64,000 nt of DNA from Nitrospira sp. (GCA_018242665.1 JAFEBL010000017.1:1-64000), one strand, 5' to 3'. Positions 456 through 24,138 are shown, counted from the first letter of the stretch. Numbers and translations are program-made. The notes: generated by a model not told the origin, from the sequence alone.

Positions 456-1703
456 GTGCACAGGATCAGGCGACGATCGAGATCACAGGCACTCTCCCTG
501 ACGTTCTGGCTCTTGCTTGCCTTCCTGTCCACGACCGCGGCCGGTTGTCTCCGCACCATGGAGGCCATCGACCCGCGAACTTTGCCGGTCACCAGTCCTT
601 CCGCTCGGCAGCTCCATGCTCACGTGTCCTTCCTGGCAAGTCCCGAACTGGCCGGCCGCCAACCAGGTAGCGCGGGCAATCGGCAGGCTGCGCGCTACAT
701 CGAGGAGCAGTTCCGCACAGTCGGGCTACAACCACTTCACTCCCTGGGCGGCTATAGACAGACGATTTCGGAATGGATGGGCGATAACGTCATCGGGGTC
801 ATCCCGCCAGTTGACCACAACGGCCCCACAGACTGGATTGTGATCGGCGCCCATTACGACCATCTGGGCTATCCCTTTCTCGGAGCCGACGACAACGCGT
901 CCTCCATTGCCATCCTGCTCGAAACAGCCCGCAGCCTAGTCAAGCCCTCCCGCTACGGTATCCTGCTCGTGGGGTTCAACGGCGAGGAGTCTCCATATTT
1001 TGGTACGGCCGACATGGGATCGCAGTTTTTCTTTCATCACCTGCCGCCGGAAATCGGCGCGGCAGACCATCTTCACGCCGTGATCATCATGGATCTGATG
1101 GGAGGCACGCACTGGGCCCCCATCAAGGATGCGATTTTTGCCACAGGAGCGGAGAAAAGCCCGGAGTTTTACAGGCACGTCATCCGCACGTCGGTGCCTT
1201 CCCTGACCGTGCTCCCCGTCGGGATCCACCTCGTCGAGGAAATCCCTGATCACGGACACAAGGCCTTCAGTGACTACGACGTGTTCCGCAACCACCACAT
1301 CCCGTTCCTGTTTCTCTCGGCCGCGCGCTCGCCCCGTTATCACACCGCAGGCGACGTCGCCAGCACGCTCAACTATGAACGCATGGCCGCCACGGTCGAG
1401 TGGCTCAGGCATCTGCTCACCGAGATGGGGCAGGACGACACGCGGTATACCTTCCACCCCCAACGAGTGGAATTCGCCGATGAGGTGGCCGCATTTCGTG
1501 GCATCGTCGAGCAGGCCATTCAGGAAGACACGCGTATTCCCGGCACATCACGCTGGTCGTTGAGGAAATTGCGGCAGGATGTGGAGTGGTTGCAGAAATT
1601 GGATAGGTCCGCGCCTACGCAGGAACAGCTGGAGCGGTTGGAACGGATTTCGATTCGCGTGCAGTGCCTCATCGCCGACTATTCGGGCTGCTTCACCTTC
1701 TAA
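456..1703 (+). CDS. M28-family zinc aminopeptidase lipoprotein
   Basis: The start is GTG, 2 bp after the FTR stop. Residues 13-31 form a signal peptide ending in the lipobox-like TAAGC (Cys31), so the protein is probably an envelope lipoprotein. The M28 co-catalytic zinc site is readable: His133 in GAHYDH, Asp145 in GADDNAS, the GEE pair near 177-178 (general base and ligand), Asp213 in IMDLMGG, and a C-terminal YHTAGD histidine. This predicts removal of N-terminal residues from peptides at the cell surface or in the periplasm. The last 90 residues are a helical extension beyond the catalytic domain. The physiological substrate cannot be read from the sequence. Confidence 0.9.
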   Translation: MHRIRRRSRSQALSLTFWLLLAFLSTTAAGCLRTMEAIDPRTLPVTSPSARQLHAHVSFLASPELAGRQPGSAGNRQAARYIEEQFRTVGLQPLHSLGGYRQTISEWMGDNVIGVIPPVDHNGPTDWIVIGAHYDHLGYPFLGADDNASSIAILLETARSLVKPSRYGILLVGFNGEESPYFGTADMGSQFFFHHLPPEIGAADHLHAVIIMDLMGGTHWAPIKDAIFATGAEKSPEFYRHVIRTSVPSLTVLPVGIHLVEEIPDHGHKAFSDYDVFRNHHIPFLFLSAARSPRYHTAGDVASTLNYERMAATVEWLRHLLTEMGQDDTRYTFHPQRVEFADEVAAFRGIVEQAIQEDTRIPGTSRWSLRKLRQDVEWLQKLDRSAPTQEQLERLERISIRVQCLIADYSGCFTF

Positions 1704-1736
1704 AGCATCCGGCCAGCCGACCCAGACTACACCTGA

Positions 1737-2222
1737 TCACTGCCACCCTTCGGTTTCGTACCCCTTTTCCTTCAGACACCGTTCGACGAAGGCGGCATAC
1801 TCCTGGCGTGGCTGGAGCGGTTTATAGGTCCCCGCCAGCAGACCCAATACTGTCCCGACCGCACCCCCCGCGGCCGCCCCGATGGCAATGCCCGTTGGCC
1901 CTCCGACCAACCCGGCCGAGGCTCCCACCGCGGCCCCGCCAATGAGGCCCAACGTCGCACCGGCGCTGGCGTTCCCGCTGCGATTGGTCCCATGGTCCAA
2001 CCCGGACCGCTCCGCCTTTAGCCCGCACACCGCCGCCTCACGTTCCGCCTGGTCTTTGCCATGCAACTGCAGATAGGTGGTCGACTTGAGAATCGGCTCC
2101 GGGCCGGCGCAGGCGACCAGGGTCAGTATCAAGAGGCCACTGACGCTATGAGCGCCACGGTTCCGGATTTGGCTGAACCTGCGAGCGAATCGCGTCGGCC
2201 TGGCGTCCACCTCATCGTGCAT
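1737..2222 (-). CDS. Glycine-zipper outer-membrane-type lipoprotein
   Basis: A signal peptide ending in LVACAG predicts lipidation. The mature part has a charged region, then a long Gly/Ala-rich zipper (repeated GGAAVGA, GGPTGIA and GAAAGGA-like segments) that forms one or two membrane-packing hairpins as in SlyB/OmpA-associated glycine-zipper proteins, then a short polar tail. The chosen ATG (2222) has a close GGGAGG Shine-Dalgarno; an in-frame ATG at 2240 is possible but lacks one. The protein is 161 residues from the chosen start. It converges on the M28 peptidase with only 33 bp between the stops. The role is probably envelope structure or integrity, which is inferred from fold alone. Confidence 0.78.
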   Translation of the reverse strand: MHDEVDARPTRFARRFSQIRNRGAHSVSGLLILTLVACAGPEPILKSTTYLQLHGKDQAEREAAVCGLKAERSGLDHGTNRSGNASAGATLGLIGGAAVGASAGLVGGPTGIAIGAAAGGAVGTVLGLLAGTYKPLQPRQEYAAFVERCLKEKGYETEGWQ

Positions 2223-2277
2223 ATGACCTCCCATCAGCATCGCCCCACGCTCTCACCAGCCCTGTCCGCGTCACTGC

Positions 2278-2613
2278 TCAGTCGAGTTGGAGCTGTGCAC
2301 GCACCTGTTCCGCGGAACGGCCCTTCACAAGAACGCGTTTCTGCCGGCTTCCCGCCCCGCTCACGATTCCCACCGCACTCGTCGGCACGCCACACAGCCG
2401 GGAAAGAAATCGGCACAATTCTTCGTTGGCCGCCCCATCAGACGGCGGCGCCGCCACACGAATCTTCACCGCATGACCGTGAACGCCGACACATTCAGTA
2501 CGCGACGCCTTTGGCTGGACATGCACCGCGATGACGGCACCCTCAGGCGTGGTGCGAACGATCTGGTCTGCTGATGGAATTTGGCCTTCGCGCTGGGGAT
2601 GTGCGCTGCTCAC
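2278..2613 (-). CDS. DUF167 / YggU-family protein
   Basis: This is a compact 111-residue protein. It matches the DUF167 pattern: an N-terminal strand with VHVQPKASR, then VKIRVAAPPSDGAANEEL followed by a helix, and a C-terminal basic strand (GSRQKRVLVKG). The family is widespread and of unknown biochemical function; small alpha/beta structures are known (E. coli YggU). The start is GTG with only a weak upstream AGGC. It lies 39 bp downstream of the CbbQ-like gene on the same strand, so cotranscription is possible. Confidence 0.85.
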   Translation of the reverse strand: MSSAHPQREGQIPSADQIVRTTPEGAVIAVHVQPKASRTECVGVHGHAVKIRVAAPPSDGAANEELCRFLSRLCGVPTSAVGIVSGAGSRQKRVLVKGRSAEQVRAQLQLD

Positions 2614-2652
2614 AGATTGCCTGCGGGTACCGGGCCACAGCCGGCTACTGCG

Positions 2653-3492
2653 TTAAAACACGGCCTTCACGACTTCGATGATGCTGCGCACCATGTCCGG
2701 ATCATCGGTGATCGGACGAGCCAGAGCCACGTCACAGGCGCGCTCAGCCGGAATGCCCTGCAGGATCAAGGTCGCCGCATAGATCAGCAGTCTGGTGCTG
2801 ACACCCTCTTCGAGCCCGTGGTTTTTCAGATTGCGCACTTTCCCGGCAATCTTCACGAGCCGTTGAGCGATGTCGGGACTCACTCCGGCCTCGTGCGCCA
2901 CCACCCGAGCTTCGATATCCGCGCCCGGATAGTCGAACTCAATGGCCATGAAGCGCTGCTTGGTGCTTTGCTTGAGATCTTTCAGAATGCTTTGGTAACC
3001 GGGGTTGTAGGAAATGACCAGCATGAAGTCGTCAACCGCCTCGATGACCTGCCCCTTTTTCTCGATCGGCAGCAGGCGGCGGTCGTCACTCAACGGATGA
3101 ATGATCACGGTGGTGTCTTTGCGGGCCTCGACGATCTCGTCCAAATAGACAATCGCCCCCTGCTTCACCCCAAGGGTCAACGGACCGTCCATCCACACCG
3201 TCTCCTGGCCTTTCAAGAGGTAGCGGCCAACAAGATCGGAAGCGGTCAGGTCTTCGTGGCAGGCCACGGTGATGAGCGGCCGCCCCAATCGATAGGCCAT
3301 ATGCTGGACGAACCGCGTCTTTCCGCAGCCGGTCGGCCCCTTGAGCATGACCGGCATCCGGCTTTTCGCGGCGATGGAAAACAGTCCCACCTCACCACGC
3401 ACGTCGGCGTAAAAGGGTTCCTGGGCGATACGGTACTGGTCGATGTTTTGTTCGTGTCCCTTCGAAGCCGTCGCCGTTCGCCCGTCGTTCAT
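2653..3492 (-). CDS. CbbQ/NirQ/NorQ-family MoxR AAA+ ATPase
   Basis: Walker A is GPTGCGKT (about 52-59) and Walker B is IVYLDE (about 114-119), with the family's long C-terminal helical part containing [14 protein letters not shown]. Relatives act as ATP-driven activators that remodel or insert metal ions into partner enzymes such as Rubisco (CbbQ with CbbO) or nitric oxide reductase (NorQ with NorD). The chosen ATG at 3492 has AGGGG at good spacing; an in-frame ATG at 3498 is less well placed. The usual VWA-domain partner (CbbO/NorD) is not adjacent or elsewhere in this window, so the client is unknown. The length (279 aa) is normal for the family. Confidence 0.9.
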
Positions 3493-3613
3493 CGCCATAC
3501 CCCTACATTGAGTTGTGCCAGCCGCATGGTGCGCCACGATAAACGGAAACCGGCCGGAAGTTCAAGCGATCGGCGGAAGGCGGTGCGCAATCGACGCAGG
3601 CGAGGCCCTCTCA

Positions 3614-6600
3614 TCAACCAACCTTCGACCCGTCCAGCACTTCTCGAACTTTTTGGGCCAGGGTCGTCGGCGTGAAGGGTTTTTGCAGGAAGGAATGTTC
3701 GGTGTCGATGCCGCCCTTAGAAAAAGCCGGATGGTCCGGATAGCCCGACATGTACAACACTTTCACCTCCGGGCGCACGGTCGCCAGCTTTTCAGCGACC
3801 TCAGGACCGCTCATTTGCGGCATCACGACATCCGTCAGGAGCAAGTGAATCGGCCCCGCATGCTTGGCGCCGGTGAGCAGCGCTTCAATGCCATGGCGGG
3901 CCTCCAACACCGTATACCCATGGAGCCGCAACGTCTCGTTGACCAGGCGTCGTACCCCCGGTTCATCCTCCACCAACAACACGGTCTCACGTCCCCGGAC
4001 AGAATCACCGCCGACGGCTACGGATTCGGCCTCCGGACTCACGGCTTCCACGCGGGGAAAGAAAATTTTGAACGTCGCTCCACGATTGGGCTTACTCTCC
4101 ACCTCGATGAAGCCGCCGCTTTGTTTGACGATGCCATACACCGTCGACAAGCCCAGCCCTGTTCCCTTGCCCTTCTCCTTGGTGGTAAAAAATGGCTCGA
4201 ACACGTGGGACTGCGTATCTTCATCCATCCCATGCCCCGTATCGCGCACAATCAGGGCGATGTACGAGCCGGGCTCGGCGCCCATCGGCGGTCGATTGCG
4301 ACGCGGGCCAAATTGCACGTTGGCGGTTTCTACGGTCAAACGGCCCCCGCTCGGCATGGCATCACGCGCGTTGACGGCCAGATTCATGATCACCTGTTCC
4401 ACCTGGCCAGGATCCGCCTTCACCTGCCCTAAGCCGGTATCCAACACCGTGCAGAGTTCTACGATGTCCTCGCCCAGCAGTCGCCGAAGCATGCCTTCCA
4501 TGTTGTGGATCACGGAATTCAAGTCCAACACTTTCGGGGCGATAAACTGTCGCCGGCTGAAGGCCAGCAATTGTCCCGTGAGGCCGGAGGCGCGATCCGC
4601 GGCTTTTTTGACTTCCTCCAACTCTTTCCGAAATCCATCGGTGGGCGAGAGACGGCTCAGCACCAACTCGCTGTACCCCCGAATCACGGTCAGCATGTTG
4701 TTGAAGTCGTGCGCGACGCCGCCGGCTAGCCGTCCGACGGCTTCCATCTTTTGCGACTGCTGAAGTTGAGCCTCCGTACGGCGTAAGGCTTCCTCGGCCC
4801 GGGCGCGATCACCAAATTGGCCGATCTTGAGCCCGACATCGGCCACCATCTTTAACAACTGTTCGTCCGGTTGTTTGATTTCACGCCGGAACAATTCGAT
4901 CACACCCTCCACCTCGGTGCCGACCCGGACCGGGAATCCAAACGCCCCGTGCAGGCCGACCCGGGAGGCCGCGGCGCCGCGCGGGAAATTGGCCTCTTGC
5001 ACCACGTCTTTGATCCAGGTGGGTTCTCCCGCCTGCCAAATCCGTCCCGGAAGTCCCTGGCCGATCGGGAAGGTATGCTGCCATGTTTCCAGCACGAATT
5101 CTTCGGCATTTAACCCCGGTGATTGCCAGACATCGAGACAGCGCAACACACTGCCTTGGCGGTCCAGCCGCCAGAAGATGCCTAGCTCCCATTCCAGACT
5201 TTCGCAGATCGCCTGCAGAATTCTTGGCCCGGCTTCCTCCAATGTTCGTGATTCGGCCAATACGCGGGTGACGGCATATTGAGAGGCCAACTGACGCTCG
5301 GTCCGCTTCCGGGCTGTAATGTCCCGAATGAAGGCGCTGAAGATGTAGGCATCGCCCAACCGTGCGGGAGAAATGGTGATTTCCACCGGGAATTCGTGAC
5401 CGTCACGATGGCTGCCCATCATCTCGATCCGCCTGTTGAGGAGCGCGCCCTGGCCAGTTTCCAAGAAATGTCGCAACCCGCGATCATGCGCGTCCCGATC
5501 TCGCCCGGGAATGATCGTCTCCGACACGCGCCGCCCCAGGGCTTCTTCCCGTTCCCACCCGAAAATGTTGACGGCCTGGGCATTCCAATCGGTGATGATC
5601 CCGCCGGCGTCCATGGAAATGACCGCGTCTAGCGCGGTGTCGACGATGACCCGATTGCGTTCCTGGCTCTGCAACAGCGCAGCTTCAGCGGCCCGTGCCC
5701 ATTCGCTTTCCTGCTGGGCCTGCCGGTGCTGATCACGCAATCGTCCGGTGGCCCAGAGCAGCAAGCCGACCATCGGAATCCAGACCACCACGCCGGCAAT
5801 GCCGAGCTTCCACATCATCGCCCGGATCGGCAGGAGAATCACATCGCGATCGATCCGTAGGAGAATGGTCCACTGCAACCCCGAGTACTCGCTATACCCT
5901 TTGGTCTGCGAATAACCCGTGACGACCGGCACGCGCCGGCGCACATGCATTTCCTCGACGTACCCGGCCTTCCCCGAGCCACTCAGCAGCACCGAGGGCA
6001 ATCCCATTTCACGGAGATTGGTCCGCTCGATACTGGCCGACGCCGAATCCACAAACACGACCCCGGCTTTCGTCAAAAACTGATACTCAAACGGTCCGGC
6101 GGCATTTTCAGTCTGCTGAATTTCACGCACGGTTTCGATCAAGACATCTTCGAGCATCGGCAGCCCGATACGGGTCGTGACCGCACCGAGAAACTGGCCG
6201 TTCACGTTGATGATGGGAGCCGTAAACGCAATGGACTCAATCTTATGGTTCGATTCGTGGATCTCGACCTCATCGACCTGCACCGTCCCCGTCTGGCGCA
6301 CCCGGTCGAACCAGCCGCTCCGGCCATAGTCCTGCCCGATCGTCGCAGAGTCCGTCGACGCCACCATGCGTCCCTGCGCATCGGTCACGCCCAACCACAG
6401 ATAGACGGGCGCGTAGGTTTCCTTCATCCATTGCAGATATTCGTTGGTGTATTTGCGATCGGCGGAGCGGTCCGAAAACGCCCGGGCCATCATGCGTATA
6501 TCGGCATGGCGTTCAAAGAGCAGCCGATCCAGCTTGTCCGCGATCTCGGCCGACGCGAGCGTGAGATTTTCTCCTGTCGCCTCCACCATTCGCACTTCGA

Positions 6601-6700: not shown

Positions 6701-8220
6701 CGTGGAGGCTCCGTCACGGTATAATTGGGCACCAATCGCGCAGGATGATACCAGCGTTTGGCGCGAGCCAGACTCGGAAGACCGGAATCATCCATGGTAT
6801 TGATCCAACATGCCCCTTTGTCGCGAGCTTGGCGACAGAATTCACGAAATATGAACGGCCCCGCCCCCACCATATCCCGATCTGCAACTTCCATCAAGAC
6901 ACAGAACACCGACGGGTTCAGCCACATTCCCAGGGTATAGGCCCGTATGCGCCCTTTCACTCGCACCACTGCGCCGGTGAGCCCCAACTCCTCATAGGCA
7001 GACAAGGCTGCCTCATGGGCGCCTGTGGCGTCTTCGAGCAGGGCCTGGGCCCACTGATCCGTGCCGGCTCCCTGTTTCTGCTCCTGCCATTCACGGAAGA
7101 GACTCAGACAGGCTGGTCGATCGCGGACATCGTAGGGTTCGAACAGCCCGCCATGTTCACGCTCAAACCGGTTACAGGCCGCCCGAGGCGACCGGTACGC
7201 ATCTCCCGCCAAATCAGCCAGATCGGCTGCAGCATAGAGATAGTCCGGTTCTTTCGCCGTCACGAGATACCCCATGCCCTGCATCTCCGCCACCAAGACC
7301 TCAGGAACATTATCTATTCTCGTCACCGGCGACGATCCATTTCGCTCACGCATAAAGCGAAACGCCGTCGCCATCGCATCGGTCAGCGGACCCTTGCCCA
7401 GCGGAGGCAGGACCATGAACAGGCCGTCCGGAGAATCGGCAAACAGGCACAGATGCCCATGAAGCTCGGCCCAGGAGTAGGTGAGGCGATGTCGCCAGAT
7501 GTAGTGGAAAGCGAACGACGCGGCGGCGAGCGGCACATCTTGAACGCCTGGGCTCTCGGCCAGGGCGGATTCCAGACGGCTTCGATCCTGAAGCATCAGC
7601 GGCTGCGTGCAAATCTGCAACGTGCCCTGCTGGAGCCGTTCGGTCAGCCGTGTCAACGGCCGGAGCACAATGACATCATCCTGAAATCGGCCGATAAGCC
7701 TGGGGTACCGCACAAACACATCCAGTGTGGCCTCTTCCTCAATCCACCGGGCTGTACGGTCCGCCGTCTGCTCGATCGGCGCAGAGGGGAGGTCCCGCAT
7801 GTAGGGGCACTTCGTGTCCCAACCGAGCAGCACCTGTGTATGCGCAGCGTCCCACATCACGGCAAACGGGTACAGACGGCAGTCGAGCGGGCGCCGATCA
7901 TAGATCCGGCACTGCGACGTGGCGGGATCAAACGCCGGACAGAGATAGCCTTCTCCGGACGGATTCGGCACCAGTTCGATCTGCGCCCCCTGAGCGTCGG
8001 GAAACAAGTCAGGCGCCAGGCCAGCCTCCACGGCTGCCCGGATTTCCTCGGCCGCAAAAAAAGGCCGGAGGACACTGTGTCGTTCCGGGAACCGGCAACA
8101 GACGTCGCACTGAAAACAGGCCGTGCTCGGTACGATCTGCAGGAGAGACTGACCTACGGGTCGCGGGGGAATCGCGGGGTTAGCATGAACGAATGGACTC
8201 GTCATGAGCTGTGGCGGCAT
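6697..8220 (-). CDS. YkgJ-type cysteine-cluster protein fused to DUF2156-like acyltransferase domain
   Basis: The N-terminal third carries a YkgJ-type metal-binding cysteine cluster: Cys35, 38, 41 and 42, then Cys94, Cys104 and Cys114 (CRIYDRRPLDCRLYP). The C-terminal two-thirds resemble the GNAT-fold DUF2156/phosphatidylglycerol lysyltransferase C-terminal family (LYAAADLADLAGDAYRSPR, then EWQEQKQG, and GACWINTMDDSGLPSLARAKRWYHP near the end). Such a domain could transfer an aminoacyl or acyl group, which is inferred. The start is uncertain: ATG 8220 or 8205, neither with a clear Shine-Dalgarno. Both 5' options overlap the start of the divergent plus-strand gene. The stop overlaps the downstream hybrid kinase start by 4 bp. 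Confidence 0.82.
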   Translation of the reverse strand: MPPQLMTSPFVHANPAIPPRPVGQSLLQIVPSTACFQCDVCCRFPERHSVLRPFFAAEEIRAAVEAGLAPDLFPDAQGAQIELVPNPSGEGYLCPAFDPATSQCRIYDRRPLDCRLYPFAVMWDAAHTQVLLGWDTKCPYMRDLPSAPIEQTADRTARWIEEEATLDVFVRYPRLIGRFQDDVIVLRPLTRLTERLQQGTLQICTQPLMLQDRSRLESALAESPGVQDVPLAAASFAFHYIWRHRLTYSWAELHGHLCLFADSPDGLFMVLPPLGKGPLTDAMATAFRFMRERNGSSPVTRIDNVPEVLVAEMQGMGYLVTAKEPDYLYAAADLADLAGDAYRSPRAACNRFEREHGGLFEPYDVRDRPACLSLFREWQEQKQGAGTDQWAQALLEDATGAHEAALSAYEELGLTGAVVRVKGRIRAYTLGMWLNPSVFCVLMEVADRDMVGAGPFIFREFCRQARDKGACWINTMDDSGLPSLARAKRWYHPARLVPNYTVTEPPR

Positions 8221-16798: not shown

Positions 16799-16817
16799 GA
16801 ACCCTCAGGTGGGGTTC
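16799..16817 (-). other. Hairpin between glutaredoxin and HAD-UbiA genes
   Basis: GAACCC and GGGTTC can pair around a 7-nt loop in the gap between the glutaredoxin stop and the HAD-UbiA start. There is no T-run on the minus strand after it, so it may be a weak terminator or a leader structure. Confidence 0.25.
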
Positions 16818-16883
16818 GCAAGAAGGACCACAGCATCAATCGGGCAAACCATGAATCAACAGGTCTGCCGCTCTGTGGATGGG

Positions 16884-17210
16884 CTACGAGGCGGTGAACG
16901 CCTTTTTCAGCAACGGCTCGACTTCGCCCTTGGCTTCCATCGGATCCAGAATATCGGTGTCGCCGTAAAACTGCCCATCAATGAAGACCTTCGGCAAGGT
17001 GGGCCAATTCGTCAACCGGGTCAAGGCTTCACGCTTGGCCGGCTGCGACAAGACGTCGATGAGTTCATAGGGATACCCGTACCTTTCAAAAAATTGCATG
17101 GTCTCCCGGGTAAACCCGCACATCGGCATGGCCTTCGTGCCCTTGCCGTAAATCAAAATCTTGTTCGCCTGAATTTCTCGTTGAATTTCTTCTTCAATGG
17201 GGTCAGCCAT
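16884..17210 (-). CDS. grxD: Grx4-type monothiol glutaredoxin
   Basis: The 108-residue protein matches CGFS glutaredoxins: KILIYGKGT, the active-site segment MPMCGFT, LPKVFIDGQFYGDTDIL and a C-terminal basic helix. The canonical motif is CGFS; here the fourth residue is Thr. In the family, the Cys and glutathione ligate a bridging 2Fe-2S cluster, which is shared or traded with BolA. The next gene upstream on the same strand, 10 bp away, is a BolA homologue, which fits this partnership. GGGAGGGACAG precedes ATG. Confidence 0.93.
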   Translation of the reverse strand: MADPIEEEIQREIQANKILIYGKGTKAMPMCGFTRETMQFFERYGYPYELIDVLSQPAKREALTRLTNWPTLPKVFIDGQFYGDTDILDPMEAKGEVEPLLKKAFTAS

Positions 17211-17220
17211 CTGTCCCTCC

Positions 17221-17466
17221 CTATGCGTTCACTTCGTCCGGTGTCGTGGCGGTGATCTCCAACGCATGAATACGTCCGTCTTTCATGGGAGCCGCAAGCG
17301 CCTGATACACCATGCGATGCCGATCCAGCAGATTTTTTTCGGCAAAACCCACCGAGGTCACTCGCACGATCAAATGGTCCTGTGTTCCCGTCTTATCGAT
17401 CACGGTCACGGCGGCGTCAGGAAACACCTGGCGGATATACGTTGTCACAGCCTCGGCGCTAATCAT
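17221..17466 (-). CDS. bolA: BolA-family protein
   Basis: The 81-residue protein has the BolA fold order: N-terminal helix, VTVIDKTG strand, DHLIVRVTSVGF, the helix HRMVYQALAAPM and IHALEITATTPDE. The conserved His in HRMVY is the usual cluster-ligand candidate. Forms a hetero-complex with monothiol glutaredoxins for iron-sulfur trafficking or regulation. The gene is 10 bp upstream of grxD on the same strand, so they almost certainly form an operon. Confidence 0.92.
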   Translation of the reverse strand: MISAEAVTTYIRQVFPDAAVTVIDKTGTQDHLIVRVTSVGFAEKNLLDRHRMVYQALAAPMKDGRIHALEITATTPDEVNA

Positions 17467-17499
17467 CGTGTCCGAGAATAACGCATCCGGTAAGCCGAA

Positions 17500-17514
17500 G
17501 GCAATCGTATTGCC
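17500..17514. promoter_or_regulatory. Dyad upstream of bolA
   Basis: GGCAAT and ATTGCC face each other around three bases, 34 bp upstream of the bolA ATG. It could be an operator for the bolA-grxD operon. No -35/-10 pair is convincing here. It is a single site, so chance is possible. Confidence 0.3.
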
Positions 17515-17642
17515 AACGAATGCTCACGCTTGTGACAGCCAATGCCGCCGCGGATGGCAATTTCGCCGGCGGCTCGCTACACTACCGGCTTACGCGGGTG
17601 GTGTGATGCTGCTCGGCTACGTAGAACGAAAGGAGTGACTTC

Positions 17643-18008
17643 ATGATCCAGTTGGTTTCGCAACGACGTCCCCGTCCCCTGGTCCGAACGATCCTCTGCG
17701 CGCTGCTGATGGTGCTCCTCTGCCAGGTGGCCCTCTCGGTCCGGCCAGCCTCCGCCGCCAGTTCCGGCTCGGAAGCGATCCAAGGCCTGGGCAGTTACTT
17801 CCTGACCTTGCCCTATGGCGGCATCAAAATGGCCGTCGCCATGTTGGGAGCGGTTGCCGGGGGCATGGGATTCATTTTCACCGGAGGCGACAAAGTCACG
17901 GCCGATAAGATCTGGGGACCAGCCATGGGGGGCGAATACGTCATTACTCCGGAACACATTCGCGGAGACAAGGATCTCCATTTCTTCGGACAAGCCCCCG
18001 CCAAGTAA
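17643..18008 (+). CDS. Hypothetical exported or membrane-anchored protein
   Basis: The 121-residue protein begins with a basic region and a signal peptide (about residues 14-39, ending PASAASS). A second Gly/Ala-rich hydrophobic segment (IKMAVAMLGAVAGGMGFIF, about 61-79) could be a membrane helix. The tail is polar (GDKVTADKIWGPAMGGEYVITPEHIRG). AAGGAG gives a clear ribosome site. I do not recognise the family; the tail composition recalls small envelope proteins found in Nitrospira and Deltaproteobacteria. It is separated from the response regulator by 267 bp, so it is probably its own transcript. Confidence 0.7.
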   Translation: MIQLVSQRRPRPLVRTILCALLMVLLCQVALSVRPASAASSGSEAIQGLGSYFLTLPYGGIKMAVAMLGAVAGGMGFIFTGGDKVTADKIWGPAMGGEYVITPEHIRGDKDLHFFGQAPAK

Positions 18009-18104
18009 GACTTGTTCACGGCGGAGCAACGCCCCCTCTCCCGGGCAATGGGCTCTCCTCATTGAGACTTCGACCCTGCCTTTCGCCGGTGGTGCATTTC
18101 ATCG

Positions 18105-18131
18105 GGCCTGGTGGATTCCAACCACCAGGCC
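18105..18131 (+). terminator. Stem-loop after the hypothetical exported protein
   Basis: GGCCTGGTGG and CCACCAGGCC form a perfect 10-bp stem around a 7-nt loop, about 100 bp downstream of the stop. There is no T-run after it, so it may be a Rho-type or processed end rather than a classical intrinsic terminator. Its position between two same-strand transcription units suits a terminator. Confidence 0.45.
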
Positions 18132-18143
18132 GGCACTCGCCGA

Positions 18144-18175
18144 CACGTGAATTCTACTAACTACCTGAATTCGTG
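18144..18175. promoter_or_regulatory. Imperfect dyad upstream of the signalling island
   Basis: CACGTGAATTC and GAATTCGTG form an inverted pair with a small bulge around a 12-nt AT-rich spacer, 100 bp upstream of the response regulator start. This is the AT-richest part of the local gap and a plausible promoter/operator region. No output protein with a DNA-binding domain is encoded in the island itself. Confidence 0.35.
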
Positions 18176-18275
18176 AGCCTCTTCTCTTTCCGCTCTCCGG
18201 CACATGTGTTGCTGTAGATCAGGAGCAAATAGGGCTTGGCAACCACCGATCGTCACACCATCAAGGAGGGGTATC

Positions 18276-18710
18276 ATGGAAGAATTCAAATCCGGCTTCT
18301 TCATGAGTGAAACCAACTGCAACGGCCGCGTGCTCATCGTCGATGATGAGCCGGACATCCGGAAGGTCGTCCGGATGACACTCCAAAAGGCCGGCTACGA
18401 AGTCATTGAGGCCGAGAACGGGGAAAAAGCCATCGAGGCCATCAACACCGGCGAAAACCGGCTGCTGCTGGACGTGCTCATCTGCGACATCCGCATGCCG
18501 AAAATCAACGGCGTCGAGGCCATCGCCTATTTCCAGCAAGAATGGCCGCGGGTGCCGATCATCGTCCTGACCGGATTCCCGGATACCGACATGGCCACCT
18601 CGTTCCTCCGCAGCGGTGTCGTCGACTACCTGGTGAAACCAGTGGAAGGCGAAAAGCTGCGCACCGCAGTCGCCAGAGCCATGGAACAACGGGAACTGGC
18701 CCAGCTGTAG
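18276..18710 (+). CDS. Single-domain response regulator
   Basis: The start ATG 18276 follows AAGGAGGGG at ideal spacing; the frame stays open upstream but without a comparable ribosome site. The 144-residue protein is a CheY-like receiver: acidic VDDEPD near residue 24, phospho-acceptor Asp in ICDIRMP, Thr in VLTGFPDT and Lys in YLVKPVEG. There is no output domain, so it should act by protein contact or as a phosphate shuttle. It precedes two histidine kinases in the same direction with a 130-bp gap, and is the likely receiver for one or both. Confidence 0.92.
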   Translation: MEEFKSGFFMSETNCNGRVLIVDDEPDIRKVVRMTLQKAGYEVIEAENGEKAIEAINTGENRLLLDVLICDIRMPKINGVEAIAYFQQEWPRVPIIVLTGFPDTDMATSFLRSGVVDYLVKPVEGEKLRTAVARAMEQRELAQL

Positions 18711-18840
18711 CCGTCCGTCATGTCGCACAGGTATCGCCCGCGTGGCGCCGGGGAGGTCGGAATGGCCCCCCCGGCGGCACGGTGCACCGCGACAGGACCA
18801 CCCTCGCACTGAACCTCCGGGCACTCACACGGACGCAGGC

Positions 18841-19890
18841 ATGACACCGAACGGTACAAGGATTGCCATCATCGGAGCGGGCAAAGGCGGAGTTGCGCTC
18901 CTCGATCTGCTTCATCAAATCCCCGACGTGGACATCGTAGGCATCACGGACAAAGATCCTGCCGCCCCCGGCTTGCAACGCGCACGGGATTTCCAGGTGC
19001 TGGTTGAACCACAGGCGGCTGACCTGATCCAGAACGACCGCGTCACGCTGATTATGGATGTGACCGGCGATCCTTCGATGAATCGCATGATTCAGACGTT
19101 AAAGCGGCCTGGCGCCGAGGTGTTGAGCGGCGGAGCGACTCGACTGCTCTGGAAGCTGGTCCAGCATCAATCCACACTGGAAGCCGAACTGTTTCAAGCC
19201 GACAAACTCGCCGGGCTGGGCTCGTTTGCCGCCGGCATCGCGCATGACATCAACAATCCCCTCCAGCTGATCCTCGGGCTCGCGGAAAATCTCGAAGACG
19301 AGCAGGACCTCAGCGTCGTGCACGAGCAGGCTCGCGACATCACCGAGGCCGTCAAACGCACCAGCGCCATCTGCCGCGACCTGACGCGCTATGCCAGGCG
19401 CAATAGCGCAGCCGAAGACGTCATGGTCAACCTCAACACGAAACTGGATGAGGCCCTGCGAATCGCGCGGTATGCCGTGACGCTGCAGGATGTCACGGTC
19501 GTGAAACGGTATGCCGACGAGGCGACCGTCAAGGGCAATCCCGATGAATTGCTCCACGTCTTTGTGAACTTGATCACGAATGCGGTCCAGGCCATTCAGG
19601 TTCGCGGGACCCTCACGCTCGAAACCAAGGTCAGCCCAGACGCCACGATCAGCGCTTCCGTGAGCGACACCGGATGCGGCATTCCGAAGGAGGCGTTTGC
19701 GAAAATTTTCGAGCCGCTCTACACGACGAAACCTCCTGGGAAAGGGACGGGCTTAGGATTGTACAATGTGATGTCGGTCATTTCGAAGATGGATGGGCAC
19801 ATTTGCGTCGAAAGTGACGTGGGTGTCGGCACGACGTTCCGCATTGAATTTCCACAGGTGCAACCGACCACATCATGCGCGCCACTGTGA
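18841..19890 (+). CDS. Soluble histidine kinase with N-terminal Rossmann-fold domain
   Basis: The 349-residue protein has no membrane segment. Residues 7-17 hold a dinucleotide loop (IAIIGAGKGG), followed by a Rossmann-like alternation (DIVGITDKDP, LIMDVTGDPS) to about residue 105, as in NAD(P)-binding dehydrogenases. A HisKA domain follows with the acceptor His135 in GIAHDINNP, then HATPase with N-box NLITNAVQA, DTGCGI and GKGTGLGL. The design suggests a kinase that reads a nucleotide redox state or another dinucleotide-linked cue, which is inference. The last 16 bp overlap the start of the next kinase gene. The ATG follows CGCAGGC. Confidence 0.87.
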   Translation: MTPNGTRIAIIGAGKGGVALLDLLHQIPDVDIVGITDKDPAAPGLQRARDFQVLVEPQAADLIQNDRVTLIMDVTGDPSMNRMIQTLKRPGAEVLSGGATRLLWKLVQHQSTLEAELFQADKLAGLGSFAAGIAHDINNPLQLILGLAENLEDEQDLSVVHEQARDITEAVKRTSAICRDLTRYARRNSAAEDVMVNLNTKLDEALRIARYAVTLQDVTVVKRYADEATVKGNPDELLHVFVNLITNAVQAIQVRGTLTLETKVSPDATISASVSDTGCGIPKEAFAKIFEPLYTTKPPGKGTGLGLYNVMSVISKMDGHICVESDVGVGTTFRIEFPQVQPTTSCAPL

Positions 19891-22367
19891 CGAACACCCC
19901 ACGCCCCTCGTCCAATCCGCTGGGATGGGGACTGAAGCGAAAGCTGATCGTCTCCATGCTGCTGGTCGGCATTGTGCCGCTACTACTCGGCCTCGGTATG
20001 GCCTTTCTGCGCGGCTCGAAAGAGATCCAAGTCGTCAGCGGCGAAAGCTTTCAAGCCTTGGCCACTGAAGCCGCCAGAAAATTGGATTTGCTCGTGGCCG
20101 AGGAGGTAGCCAGGACGTCGCGCATCACCGTCCACCCGGCCATCATTCAACAATTGGAACATCGCCGCGATCTGCTGCAATCCGGCGACCCACGAGTATC
20201 CCCGGCGGCTGTCACCCAACAACGCACCGAATGGGCCGCGCACGATCCCCTGGCGGTCAAGGCCATCACGGACAATCCCACCGCGCTTCTGCTGCGGGGA
20301 TTTTATGCCGGCTCCCAGAGTGAGTCCGACCTATTACTGCCCCAGGTCGTGCGAGCGGCTACGAAAAAACTCTTCATCACGGATGTGCAGGGCAATCTCT
20401 TCGCGGCGCTCACCACGTTCCCCAGCTACGCAAATGCCGAGAGTCTGTGGTGGAAGGGTGCCTACAACAAGGGGGTGGGCCAGCTCTATATCGAAGATCT
20501 GTACTTCGACGAGCAGGTCAATACCTATGTCTTCAGCATCTCGCTGCCCATTATGGACAGCCTTCGCTACGAAGTGGTGGGGATCCTCCATCGAGTCATC
20601 GACGCAAAAGAATTTTTCTCCCCCTCGACACACCCGATCCGGTTCGGCAAAACCGGCCACGTCATGCTGATCGACAGCCGGGGGATCGTCCTGAGTTGCC
20701 CCATTCTGCCGACGGGAGTCCGCCTGTCCGATCCGGCGCTGATTCCCCAGGTCACCGGCAGGGAACCGGGCTGGGTCACCGCCGGCAGCGACGGCCATGG
20801 GGGGCAAGGTACCGCCATTATCGGATATGCATTGCTGCCTGAAACCAGCCGCGCCACCAATGGATCCCTCGAAAACGGCGCCTGGCACACGTTTGTCTGG
20901 CAATCGTCCGACGAGCTTTTTTCGCCGATCCGGCATCTCATGTTATGGATGGTGATTCTCGCATCCGTCGCCCTCTGCCTGCTTGCAACCTTGGGATACT
21001 TTGCCGCCAGCCGGATCGTCACGCCGGTCCGCCGCCTGCAAGAGGCCGCCCGCCTCATCGGGCGTGGGGAACTGCAGGAACCGATCGACATTCGTACGGG
21101 CGATGAACTGGAAGAACTGGCCATTGAGTTCAACCGCATGCATACCCAATTGGAGGCGGCCTTCGCCGGACTGAGCACGCAGGTCGAAGAAAAGACACAA
21201 GAGGTGCAGTACCTCCAGAAATCCACCGACCAGGTCCTGGACGCGGTACCAACCCCCATTATCATGATCGATCAACAAGGCCTCATCCAGTACATGAACC
21301 GGGCCTCGCGGGACACGTTGAACGCGAAGTCAGAGGACTGGTCCTCCCGGCCGTTGTTCGAGCTGCTTCCGATCGATAACGAGCATCGCCAGGCCCTTCG
21401 CCGGGATTTTCGGCTGGTGGAAGCCGGCATGCCCGTGGCGTCTTCCCGCACGGATCAGGACCAGGCGCCTCGGGAAGCGCGAGACCCGTTGAATCAAACG
21501 CTCAGCCCCGCACCGGCTTCATTGCGGCGGGAATTGCGCATCGGCCCACATCTGTATCATTACGAATGGTTCCCGCTCGAAGGCCGTAGCGGCGCGGGCA
21601 AACGGTTCGGACTCGTGCTGCGCGACACGACCGATGAAAGCCGGTTGCAAGATCAACTGATTCAAGCGGAAAAGTCCGGCAGTCTGGATGTCCTGACGGC
21701 CGGGATCGGCCATGAACTCAACAACCCGCTGTTCGGCATTCTCGGTCTCGGCGAGGCCATTCAAGAAGAAGCCGACTTGGAGCGCGCCAAAGGATATGCC
21801 CAGGACATCGTCGGACATGGCCGGAAAATGGCGGCGATTATTCGCGATTTCACCGGGGTCGCAGCCCGCGAATCCAAAAGCCAGCGCATTCCGGTCGACG
21901 TCACGGCCCAACTTGAGCAAGCCCTGGCGATTGTGCAGACCTCCCATGAATGCCTCGGCTTGAACGTCCAGAAACACTATGTCGCCGTGTCTCCAGTGAC
22001 GGCACTGCCGGATCAAGTCCGGCTGGCCTTCATCAATGTGCTGACGAATGCCATCCAAGCCATGCACGGGCAAGGGGATCTCTGGCTGACCACTGAAGAA
22101 CAGGACGACATGGTGACGATCAAAATCCGCGACAATGGGCCGGGCATTCCCAAGCAGCATCTGGGGAAGGTCTTCGATCCGTTTTACACGACTAAGGGAC
22201 AGGGCGAAGGGTCGGGCCTGGGCCTGACCGTCGCGCAACGGTTGATCAAGAAGTTCGGCGGCGAGATCCGGCTGGAGTGCCCGGAGGGACAGGGGACCAC
22301 CTGCGTCATTACGCTGCCGGCGGACAAGTCCGGGGTACGGAAGGAGGAGCCATGCGTCTCATCCTGA
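19875..22367 (+). CDS. Membrane sensor histidine kinase (Cache-HAMP-PAS)
   Basis: The 830-residue protein has TM1 at about 24-46, a large extracytoplasmic Cache-like domain (about 50-350, with TKKLFITDVQGNLFA and GHVMLIDSRGIVLS), TM2 at about 356-378, a HAMP domain (about 375-430), a PAS domain (about 455-590), HisKA with His613 in GIGHELNNP, and HATPase with NVLTNAIQA, DNGPGI and GSGLGL. Its start overlaps the previous kinase by 16 bp and its end overlaps the heme-protein gene by exactly 16 bp, so the three are probably translated as a coupled unit. There is no receiver domain, consistent with use of the separate regulator at 18276. Confidence 0.92.
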   Translation: MRATVTNTPRPSSNPLGWGLKRKLIVSMLLVGIVPLLLGLGMAFLRGSKEIQVVSGESFQALATEAARKLDLLVAEEVARTSRITVHPAIIQQLEHRRDLLQSGDPRVSPAAVTQQRTEWAAHDPLAVKAITDNPTALLLRGFYAGSQSESDLLLPQVVRAATKKLFITDVQGNLFAALTTFPSYANAESLWWKGAYNKGVGQLYIEDLYFDEQVNTYVFSISLPIMDSLRYEVVGILHRVIDAKEFFSPSTHPIRFGKTGHVMLIDSRGIVLSCPILPTGVRLSDPALIPQVTGREPGWVTAGSDGHGGQGTAIIGYALLPETSRATNGSLENGAWHTFVWQSSDELFSPIRHLMLWMVILASVALCLLATLGYFAASRIVTPVRRLQEAARLIGRGELQEPIDIRTGDELEELAIEFNRMHTQLEAAFAGLSTQVEEKTQEVQYLQKSTDQVLDAVPTPIIMIDQQGLIQYMNRASRDTLNAKSEDWSSRPLFELLPIDNEHRQALRRDFRLVEAGMPVASSRTDQDQAPREARDPLNQTLSPAPASLRRELRIGPHLYHYEWFPLEGRSGAGKRFGLVLRDTTDESRLQDQLIQAEKSGSLDVLTAGIGHELNNPLFGILGLGEAIQEEADLERAKGYAQDIVGHGRKMAAIIRDFTGVAARESKSQRIPVDVTAQLEQALAIVQTSHECLGLNVQKHYVAVSPVTALPDQVRLAFINVLTNAIQAMHGQGDLWLTTEEQDDMVTIKIRDNGPGIPKQHLGKVFDPFYTTKGQGEGSGLGLTVAQRLIKKFGGEIRLECPEGQGTTCVITLPADKSGVRKEEPCVSS

Positions 22368-22942
22368 GATTCGCCCACACGCGATGGATGTGGCTCGCGC
22401 TGCTGCTGCTCTGCGCCTCAGCCTACTCTCTGCACGCAAAAGACGCCGCGCCGACCGGCATTGCGCCGGAAAAGGTGGCAGATTTCGTCCATGCGGTGTT
22501 GGATGCCGACCGGACAATTTATACGAACCAAGTGGTCAACCGCATGCAAGCCAAAGGCATCGTGTCCGCCGTGGAACATTGGGAGCATGAAAATGCTCTC
22601 CCGCTCCCCGCGCAATTCCTGCAACACTCCGGCAAGCTCGTGGCGGAGTCGGGACGGGGCATCCGTTATCGGCTCATCAGCCTCTGGCCGATTTATCCGC
22701 GTAATGCGCCGGCGACTGACCTGGAACGTCAGGCGCTGGAAAGTTTTTCGCAGACCCCGGACCGGCCGTTCACTGGAATCGTCACGAGCGGCCGCAAACA
22801 ATATTTTCAAGCGATCTATTCGGATCGTGCGATTTCAGCGGCCTGCGTCAAATGCCACAATAGCCACCCACTGAGTCCCAAGCGCGACTTTTCGCTCAAC
22901 GATGTGATGGGTGGGATGACGATCACGATTCCGCTCGATTGA
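22352..22942 (+). CDS. Exported DUF3365 (Tll0287-like) c-type heme protein
   Basis: ATG 22352 follows AAGGAGGAG; the frame extends upstream but this ribosome site is decisive. The 196-residue protein has a signal peptide (about 10-30) and a DUF3365/Tll0287-like domain with EKVADFVHAVLDADRTIYT at the front and a single heme-attachment motif CVKCH at 165-169 followed by NSHPLSPKRDF. Tll0287-like domains resemble PAS folds and are proposed periplasmic heme or redox sensors. The 16-bp overlap with the Cache kinase suggests that the heme protein acts with that kinase, perhaps as its ligand-sensing partner. Confidence 0.9.
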   Translation: MRLILRFAHTRWMWLALLLLCASAYSLHAKDAAPTGIAPEKVADFVHAVLDADRTIYTNQVVNRMQAKGIVSAVEHWEHENALPLPAQFLQHSGKLVAESGRGIRYRLISLWPIYPRNAPATDLERQALESFSQTPDRPFTGIVTSGRKQYFQAIYSDRAISAACVKCHNSHPLSPKRDFSLNDVMGGMTITIPLD

Positions 22943-22964
22943 CAGGCGCCGATCCGGAGGGACG

Positions 22965-24044
22965 TCAGGGCTGAACAAGCGACGAAGCCGGCGGTTGATA
23001 TTCCTCGCGATAGATCTGCAAGGCGGTGAGAAAGAGGCCCACCAGAATCGGCCCCAGAAACAACCCGAGAATTCCATAGGCTGCCAAGCCTCCCAAGACG
23101 CTGAAGGTCAGCAGTAAGACAGGAATCTGGGCTCCCTGCCCGATAAACAGCGGCTTCAAAATCTGATCGACTGTCGAGACGACTCCGATTCCCCAGGCCA
23201 GGATCACCACTCCCTTGACCACCGCCCCCGTCCACAACAGATACAGCGCGACCGGCCCCCAAATGAGCGCCGTGCCACCAAACGGGAGCGGGGCCAGCAG
23301 GATGGTCAGGGCCATCAAGACCATGGGGAACGGCACGCTCAGGACGGCATAGGCTGCGCCGGCGAGCAGGCCCTGCGCAATGGCCGTCAACACAATGCCT
23401 TTCACGACAGCACGAATGGTTTGGTCCAGACGGATGAGGATCTTGTCTTTGTGCGAGGCTTCGAGCGGGATCAGGCCATACAACGACATGAGCCAATGAC
23501 GGCCATCCTTGAAAAAAAAGAACAACGTAAACACCATGACGAGAAAATCCGCCACCAGCATGAAGACATCCCGCACGAGATCGCTCAACTCACCTACCAC
23601 GAACTTACTGAACGTTTTGGCGCTGGAGAGCACGAATTGCTCCAGGTCGCTTTCCCTCCCCGTGACACGTTCCAGCCACGCTCTGGCCGCACGCCCGCCC
23701 GGCAGGCCCGACAAGCGGTCGGGCAATTGTTGCACGCCCCCAGAGGCGATCCATTCCCGCACCGCCCGCTCGGCCGATCCCGCCTCCTTCACCAGCATCA
23801 CGCTCAAGACGATCAACGGCACCACCACCAAGGCAAGCGCGGCCAGCGTCAGGAGCACCGCGGAATGTGATTCCCTGCCTCCCAGCCATGCCGTGAGACG
23901 ACTATGCAGAGGGAAGCAGAGATGCGCCAAAATCACTGCCCACAGCACTGGAAACAGGAAGGGGCGGAACATCAACGCCATCTGGTAGAACAGCGCCAGC
24001 AGCACGCCGAAAAAGCAAATGGCAAAAATCTGTCGTCGATTCAT
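22965..24044 (-). CDS. AI-2E family transporter (PerM/YdiK-like)
   Basis: The 359-residue polytopic protein has the family arrangement: two to three N-terminal helices, a soluble region with the amphipathic stretch VRDVFMLVADFLVMVF near residue 160, then further helices with GLLAGAAYAVLSVPFP and LLAPLPFGGTALIWGPVALYL, and a C-terminal helix pair ending FLGPILVGLFLTAL. Members export small molecules or ions; only some move autoinducer-2. The ATG has no clear Shine-Dalgarno. It is downstream of the bactofilin gene with a 175-bp gap containing a strong inverted repeat. Confidence 0.9.
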   Translation of the reverse strand: MNRRQIFAICFFGVLLALFYQMALMFRPFLFPVLWAVILAHLCFPLHSRLTAWLGGRESHSAVLLTLAALALVVVPLIVLSVMLVKEAGSAERAVREWIASGGVQQLPDRLSGLPGGRAARAWLERVTGRESDLEQFVLSSAKTFSKFVVGELSDLVRDVFMLVADFLVMVFTLFFFFKDGRHWLMSLYGLIPLEASHKDKILIRLDQTIRAVVKGIVLTAIAQGLLAGAAYAVLSVPFPMVLMALTILLAPLPFGGTALIWGPVALYLLWTGAVVKGVVILAWGIGVVSTVDQILKPLFIGQGAQIPVLLLTFSVLGGLAAYGILGLFLGPILVGLFLTALQIYREEYQPPASSLVQP

Positions 24045-24086
24045 AGAGGTGTCGCGGTCAACTGCGTTGCAGCCGTTGATAACAGA

Positions 24087-24138
24087 ACCCGCTCAGGATG
24101 TCACGCGCGGGACTTCGAGCCCTCGTGCCTGAGCGGGT
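24087..24138 (-). terminator. Long-loop inverted repeat after the bactofilin gene
   Basis: ACCCGCTCAGG and CCTGAGCGGGT are a perfect 11-bp inverted repeat around a 30-nt loop, in the gap between bactofilin and the AI-2E transporter. On the minus strand the stem is followed by a modestly T-rich stretch. It could terminate or stabilise bactofilin mRNA. Confidence 0.45.

Follow-up and report, generated by a model that had tools for sequence, protein, structure and literature searches.

Several described two-component systems resemble parts of the locus reported here. Systems of the LuxP-LuxQ type are built on kinases assisted by a periplasmic binding protein, the sporulation kinases form a multi-kinase network that converges on one receiver, Spo0F, and systems of the AtoS/ZraS class are normally paired with sigma-54 activators. 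Nitrospira rank among the main oxidisers of nitrite, and the known comammox bacteria belong to them, yet little has been written on nitric oxide (NO), nitrite or redox sensing in them. The present analysis concerns a stretch of 64,000 nucleotides from Nitrospira sp. (GCA_018242665.1 JAFEBL010000017.1:1-64000; hereafter, the window), belonging to a draft genome of 4.06 Mb in 57 contigs. It carries four adjacent plus-strand genes for a single-domain response regulator (RR), a soluble histidine kinase (HK1), a membrane histidine kinase (HK2), and an exported, Tll0287-like c-type heme protein (Tll). Comparison of the sequences indicates that this gene order is an old, selected unit inherited within the Nitrospirales; its two unlike kinases, with different sensors, would feed one shared single-domain receiver.

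The pairing of Tll with HK2 recalls LuxP-LuxQ, in that an exported protein is proposed to assist a membrane kinase at its periplasmic domain, and LuxP-LuxQ structures were found among the weak fold matches; however, Tll is a c-type heme Cache domain where LuxP is of the sugar-binding type, and its contact with HK2 is a proposal. As in the Spo0F network, a single-domain receiver stands beside several HisKA-type kinases, but here two kinases and a heme protein are held in one conserved block, there is no adjacent relay partner, and the convergence is predicted. HK1 and HK2 share the HxxNNPL acceptor box, and the best NCBIfam matches of both kinase cores were of the AtoS/ZraS class, although the scores fell far under the family cut-offs, the partner is a receiver only, and the sensor domains are different. 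Every part of the cassette belongs to or resembles a known family, and the combination may be new within two-component signalling. A search of the open-licence literature brought up no description of the fixed four-gene combination, and no paper joining Nitrospira with DUF3365.

Open reading frames (ORFs) and Pfam domains agreed on the presence and adjacency of the four genes, as proposed in an earlier, sequence-only reading of the window. Response_reg was the sole Pfam domain of RR, confirming that it lacks an output domain. HK1 consists of the Rossmann domain, then HisKA, then HATPase_c, with neither a winged-helix domain nor transmembrane (TM) segments. HK2 is ordered dCache_1-HAMP-PAS-HisKA-HATPase_c, and its two TM segments enclose ~310 periplasmic residues. 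The kinases possess HisKA and HATPase_c with intact motifs, and the receiver has the conserved Asp/Thr/Lys of two-component proteins. In a signature check of 41-43 loci, the DD/D/T/K motifs of the receiver were intact in 42 of 42 loci, each active-site motif of HK1 was present in 42-43 of 43, and those of HK2 were present in 40 of 41, the exception being a truncated ORF.

The linkage was surveyed in 296 Nitrospirota genomes, with presence called at chosen score thresholds and adjacency counted by eye from coordinates. RR was called in 89 genomes, HK1 in 80, HK2 in 81, and Tll in 80. HK1 and HK2 occurred together in 78 genomes and were adjacent in 77 of these, the other showing a contig break. 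Tll lay closely downstream of HK2 in 76 of the 81 HK2 carriers, and RR adjoined HK1 wherever contigs permitted. Under the same proviso, all four orthologues stood side by side within the genus, which is the linkage on which the earlier reading had staked its proposal. The full block was present in the Nitrospiraceae and in a second family of the same order, where the flanking genes were unlike and HK1 and HK2 had ~46-53% identity to those of the window. Retention of the order in two families despite changed flanks indicates more than chance, and the block very probably forms one functional unit. A scan of genome contigs, which reaches close relatives only, returned no orthologues outside Nitrospira. 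Two probable cases of single-genome decay were also seen: a 30-residue remnant of Tll after HK2 (L074, G222), and a stop inside HK2 (L068, G301).

In the proposed mechanism, the cytosolic HK1 would use its Rex-like Rossmann domain to read a dinucleotide, with the NAD(H) pool as the likeliest candidate, and HK2 would read the periplasm through its dCache domain. Tll would assist HK2 from the periplasm, as a sensor detached from the kinase or as a partner that binds the ligand, with a pocket that, having no axial Cys, would suit NO or redox sensing. Phosphorylated RR would relay the signal through protein contact and not through DNA binding, and the cassette would probably report redox state or NO inside and outside the cell. 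Linkage, conservation, architecture and fold classes were established by computation, as were the promoter-like motif, the hairpin and the pattern of ribosome sites, and we infer the ligands, the phosphotransfer, the contact between Tll and HK2, and the output; the explanation as a whole is about evenly poised. Several observations weigh against it. A class-level outgroup (L072) has RR-HK1-HK2 with no adjacent Tll, suggesting that HK2 is able to do without Tll. Together with RR-HK1 in g19 (L077), the few outgroups are consistent with signalling genes that may predate Tll, which may have joined them within the order. In G185, HK1, HK2 and Tll fell below thresholds, and RR was kept in its syntenic position, with the AI-2E gene on one side and the glutaredoxin gene on the other; this persistence without the kinases suggests that RR may have other partners. 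At least 50 other HisKA matches in the window genome make partners outside the block possible, and most second-family loci showed no sigma-54-like site of the kind described below. Finally, stand-alone heme-Cache domains have been proposed to be redox proteins, not sensors (PMC12889525).

Tll matched the Tll0287-like family (DUF3365, sCache_heme, PF11845) with 73.5 bits against a cut-off of 24.1, its N-terminus is signal-peptide-like, and its CxxCH heme-attachment motif was invariant in 38 operon orthologues. The description of a periplasmic c-type heme protein was thereby upheld, and covalent heme binding is predicted from the motif and export signal. The Tll model matched Tll0287 (5b82) with a Z of 12.8 and a root-mean-square deviation of 3.9 over 145 aligned residues, the next row having a Z of 8.5. 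Beyond residue 32, the 38 orthologues contained no Cys except those of CxxCH, making Cys/His ligation of the Tll0287 type impossible within Tll. Since comparison of Tll and a paralogue with PDB chain sequences found no relative, the axial Cys of Tll0287 is regarded as lost on the ground that Tll has no residue of that kind, a conclusion that does not draw on a residue alignment.

A signalling-associated sCache_heme member from P. azotoformans, which has no axial Cys, is reported to bind NO tightly, and a stand-alone, Cys-ligated member to be redox-like (PMC12889525). Tll shares the heme-Cache fold, CxxCH and export with the described proteins (5b82, 3b42), and the Cys-less pocket, as in the P. 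azotoformans protein, links it to the NO-type domains. The R..Y and CHNxHPxSPK sequence type of Tll is common to plasmid-borne chemoreceptor and cyclase proteins. It differs from the NO-binding members in being a separate gene in a kinase operon, not fused to HAMP, a kinase or a chemoreceptor, and from stand-alone Tll0287 in not being of the Cys/His type. Because it is unfused, Tll was not filed under the NO-sensing 'Cluster 2' (PMC12889525); it is an intermediate case, with a stand-alone gene and a Cys-less pocket.

Whether Tll modulates HK2 is judged an even question, and NO is a tentative candidate for the ligand. Alternatively, Tll may be no more than co-transcribed with the kinases, which would sense other ligands, and may itself serve in the periplasm as a c-type protein for redox reactions or NO buffering. 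Such a role would agree with the redox functions proposed for stand-alone sCache_heme proteins (PMC12889525), with the strong Shine-Dalgarno (SD) sequence of Tll, and with three close stand-alone Tll paralogues elsewhere in the genome that have no obvious adjacent kinase. It is nevertheless rather unlikely, given the tight linkage of the two genes in 76 of the 81 genomes that carry HK2, the Cys-less pocket and sequence type common to signalling-fused domains, and a second dCache kinase of the window genome (L094) that also lies near a stand-alone heme-Cache gene.

Among PDB sequences, the HK2 dCache domain matched only 3lif, at an E of 0.013, which gave no ligand prediction. C275, the sole Cys of the HK2 periplasmic domain, was kept in all 40 full-length orthologues examined, and was also retained in distant dCache kinases and paralogues, some without a neighbouring heme-Cache gene. 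A split heme-gas sensor can be envisaged, in which Tll would dock on the HK2 dCache domain and C275 would act as the switch, as an axial ligand in trans or as a thiol, replacing the Cys that Tll lacks, and in which this sensor would be joined with an NAD(H)-reading kinase on one receiver under sigma-54 control. This elaboration is very unlikely, and its trans-ligand part is weakened by the presence of C275 in distant kinases that lack a heme-Cache neighbour.

Convergence of both kinases on RR is moderately favoured, and a dual redox/NO input to this receiver is plausible. The block contains no receiver other than RR, which adjoins HK1 wherever contigs permit and faces two kinases of the same HxxNNPL class. 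These points stand against the alternative that the kinases do not converge, and that an NtrC-type sigma-54 activator or some different regulator is driven by at least one of them, with RR acting as a phosphate sink or serving further kinases. That alternative, which we consider unlikely, draws on the conservation of RR. RR was the slowest-evolving of the four proteins, with mean identities of 96/83/65% at genus/family/order level, compared with 83/62/49% for HK1, 85/61/50% for HK2, and 87/67/61% for Tll, and it survives without the kinases in G185. The residues right after the acceptor His also differ (LQL in HK1, LFG in HK2); the specificity residues of the two kinases, compared by eye, were mixed and were not used as evidence on convergence. 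In addition, an NtrC-type activator adjoins the module in two related genera, g3 (L104; RR, HK2-like kinase, activator, kinase) and g10 (L066; RR, HK1, activator, kinase), and the two activators have 72% identity. This adjacency suggests that the module is tied to sigma-54 signalling.

A promoter-like -24/-12 element (GG-N10-GC) was found ahead of the first gene in the genus and in several sister genera; its copy in the window, CGGCACATGTGTTGCT, matches 10 of 12 consensus positions. A site of this kind preceded the RR start by 67-80 nt in all 23 genus loci, 22 of them matching at least 10/12 positions, and matches of at least 10/12 were found in 5 of 10 other Nitrospiraceae loci, including 12/12 (L065) and 11/12 (L063). 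Across 1.19 Mb on both strands, 58 sites reached at least 10/12, many of them being these RR-upstream ones. The window genome encodes rpoN, and transcription of the Nitrospiraceae cassette probably starts at a sigma-54 promoter, on this motif evidence. The earlier reading mentioned neither this site nor the hairpin, the Cys-less heme pocket or the neighbouring NtrC-type activators.

The earlier assignment of a Rossmann domain to the soluble kinase also held. The AlphaFold model of the HK1 N-terminal domain showed a beta-alpha-beta arrangement, with pLDDT mostly 84-95 over residues 11-90, and G12, G14, G16, G17 and D37 were invariant. The profile matched acetaldehyde dehydrogenase at an E of 5e-6 and Rex at 9e-5; in the fold search, the listed matches were filled by the kinase half. 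Together, model and sequence indicate an NAD-type domain that resembles NAD-binding and Rex domains. HK1 shares with Rex a Rossmann domain with a glycine motif and an acidic residue, and presumably the reading of NADH/NAD+, but its output is a histidine kinase, whereas Rex is a winged-helix repressor, and the sequence similarity is remote; HK1 may act like Rex without being a Rex member. That the domain instead binds another nucleotide or a CoA compound, or has become a mere dimerisation module, is quite unlikely. In its favour, single-sequence Pfam matches of the N-terminal ~110 residues were below cut-offs and scattered among various Rossmann families that use NAD or CoA. Against it, the glycine motif and the acidic residue that follows beta-2, typical of NAD sites, are both invariant, and the top profile matches were to dehydrogenases that use NAD and to Rex, a sensor of NADH.

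The 16-bp overlaps at both junctions of the last three genes were exact in the window. Starts were picked by similarity, and single overlap values may therefore be off; with this reservation, most genus loci had an HK1/HK2 overlap of 16 bp and four had one of 4 bp, and the HK2/Tll overlap was 16 bp in every genus locus having both genes. Outside the genus, overlaps were mostly 4, 49 or 52 bp, or were replaced by small gaps. The 16/16 pattern is limited to part of the genus; the system as a whole does not conserve it. Mean anti-SD pairing energies within the genus were -11.9 kcal/mol for RR, -4.4 for HK1, -2.5 for HK2 and -11.5 for Tll, and the ranking, strong for RR and Tll and weak for both kinases, was unchanged at family and order level. 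Fixed-ratio translation, which the equal overlaps had been taken to suggest, was rejected because the overlaps vary, the SD strengths are very unequal, and a hairpin parts RR from HK1. Instead, RR, with its strong SD and with the hairpin ahead of HK1, would be more abundant than the kinases, and Tll, also with a strong SD, would be more abundant than HK2.

The RR-HK1 hairpin was supported by five doubly changed pairs, and 95.5% of cells pair, compared with 45-60% when the alignment is slid. Its covariation score exceeded those of all 500 shuffles, which ignore relatedness. In 17 of 19 divergent loci, a hairpin of mostly unrelated sequence at the same place beat at least 39 of 40 shuffles. The stability of the entire RR-HK1 gap of the window was not unusual (z -1.3), and an Rfam scan of 16800-24100 gave no match. 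An ordinary intrinsic terminator was rejected, as a T-run is absent after the hairpin in the window; the hairpin is consequently read as a stability or partial-termination element, which would let RR outnumber the kinases. A dispersed repeat was rejected as well, the genus consensus being unmatched in the window at up to 3 mismatches, a search that excludes consensus-type copies only, since the window hairpin differs from the consensus in spacing.

As a vertically kept sensor block of the order, for which a heme partner, signals for stoichiometry and a type of promoter have been recognised, the cassette offers concrete, testable entry points into sensing in Nitrospira, and it would be a natural test of stand-alone heme-Cache proteins as sensor subunits.

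Table 1. Positions of the cassette genes, their elements and neighbouring or related genes (window coordinates unless a locus is named).
Feature	Position	Strand	Remark
RR	18276-18710	+	144 aa
HK1	18841-19890	+	349 aa
HK1 Rossmann (NAD-type) domain	18841-19164	+	GAGKGG motif and D37; from model, invariant residues and profile matches
HK2	19875-22367	+	830 aa
C275 codon of HK2	20697-20699	+	
Tll	22352-22942	+	196 aa
Tll heme-attachment motif	22844-22858	+	CVKCH
HK1/HK2 overlap	19875-19890	+	16 bp
HK2/Tll overlap	22352-22367	+	16 bp
Sigma-54-type (-24/-12) promoter-like site	18198-18213	+	starts 78 nt upstream of RR start codon
Hairpin between RR and HK1	18740-18782	+	12 bp consensus stem with compensatory changes
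RR of G185, in L108 (G185:C34:112000-126000)	near 7395-7826	-	
BolA-glutaredoxin pair	16884-17466	-	divergent, upstream
Exported-looking protein	17643-18008	+	121 aa
AI-2E-type transporter	22965-24044	-	downstream
L094 (own genome C12:40000-52000), dCache kinase	632-2938		
L094, receiver-containing regulator	2920-3564		overlaps the kinase
L094, stand-alone heme-Cache gene	5187-5963		
L099 (own genome C44:17000-28000), heme-Cache gene and neighbours	1135-1740, 1918-2889, 5093-5848		

The kinase of L094 belongs to the HK2 subfamily and has the conserved Cys, and another such kinase lies ~6 kb on (L140, C12 near 52 kb); the kinase/heme-Cache neighbourhood thus recurs in the window genome. The stand-alone heme-Cache gene of L099 is of a different sequence type, and its neighbours encode a NirK-like copper protein (under the NCBIfam cut-off) and a Crp/Fnr-type regulator. 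NirK was rejected as a linked NO source: almost every member of the Nitrospiraceae has NirK-like genes, whether it carries the cassette or not, and in several cassette carriers of the second family such genes were below threshold, so that their distribution is uninformative. A narH model, used for NXR co-occurrence, had no match in the draft window genome.

The 121-residue protein encoded upstream of RR had no Pfam or NCBIfam match and none in the other genera examined, and was kept in most genus loci. The BolA-glutaredoxin pair and the AI-2E-type transporter were not found beside the cassette of the second family; both border it in many Nitrospiraceae loci.

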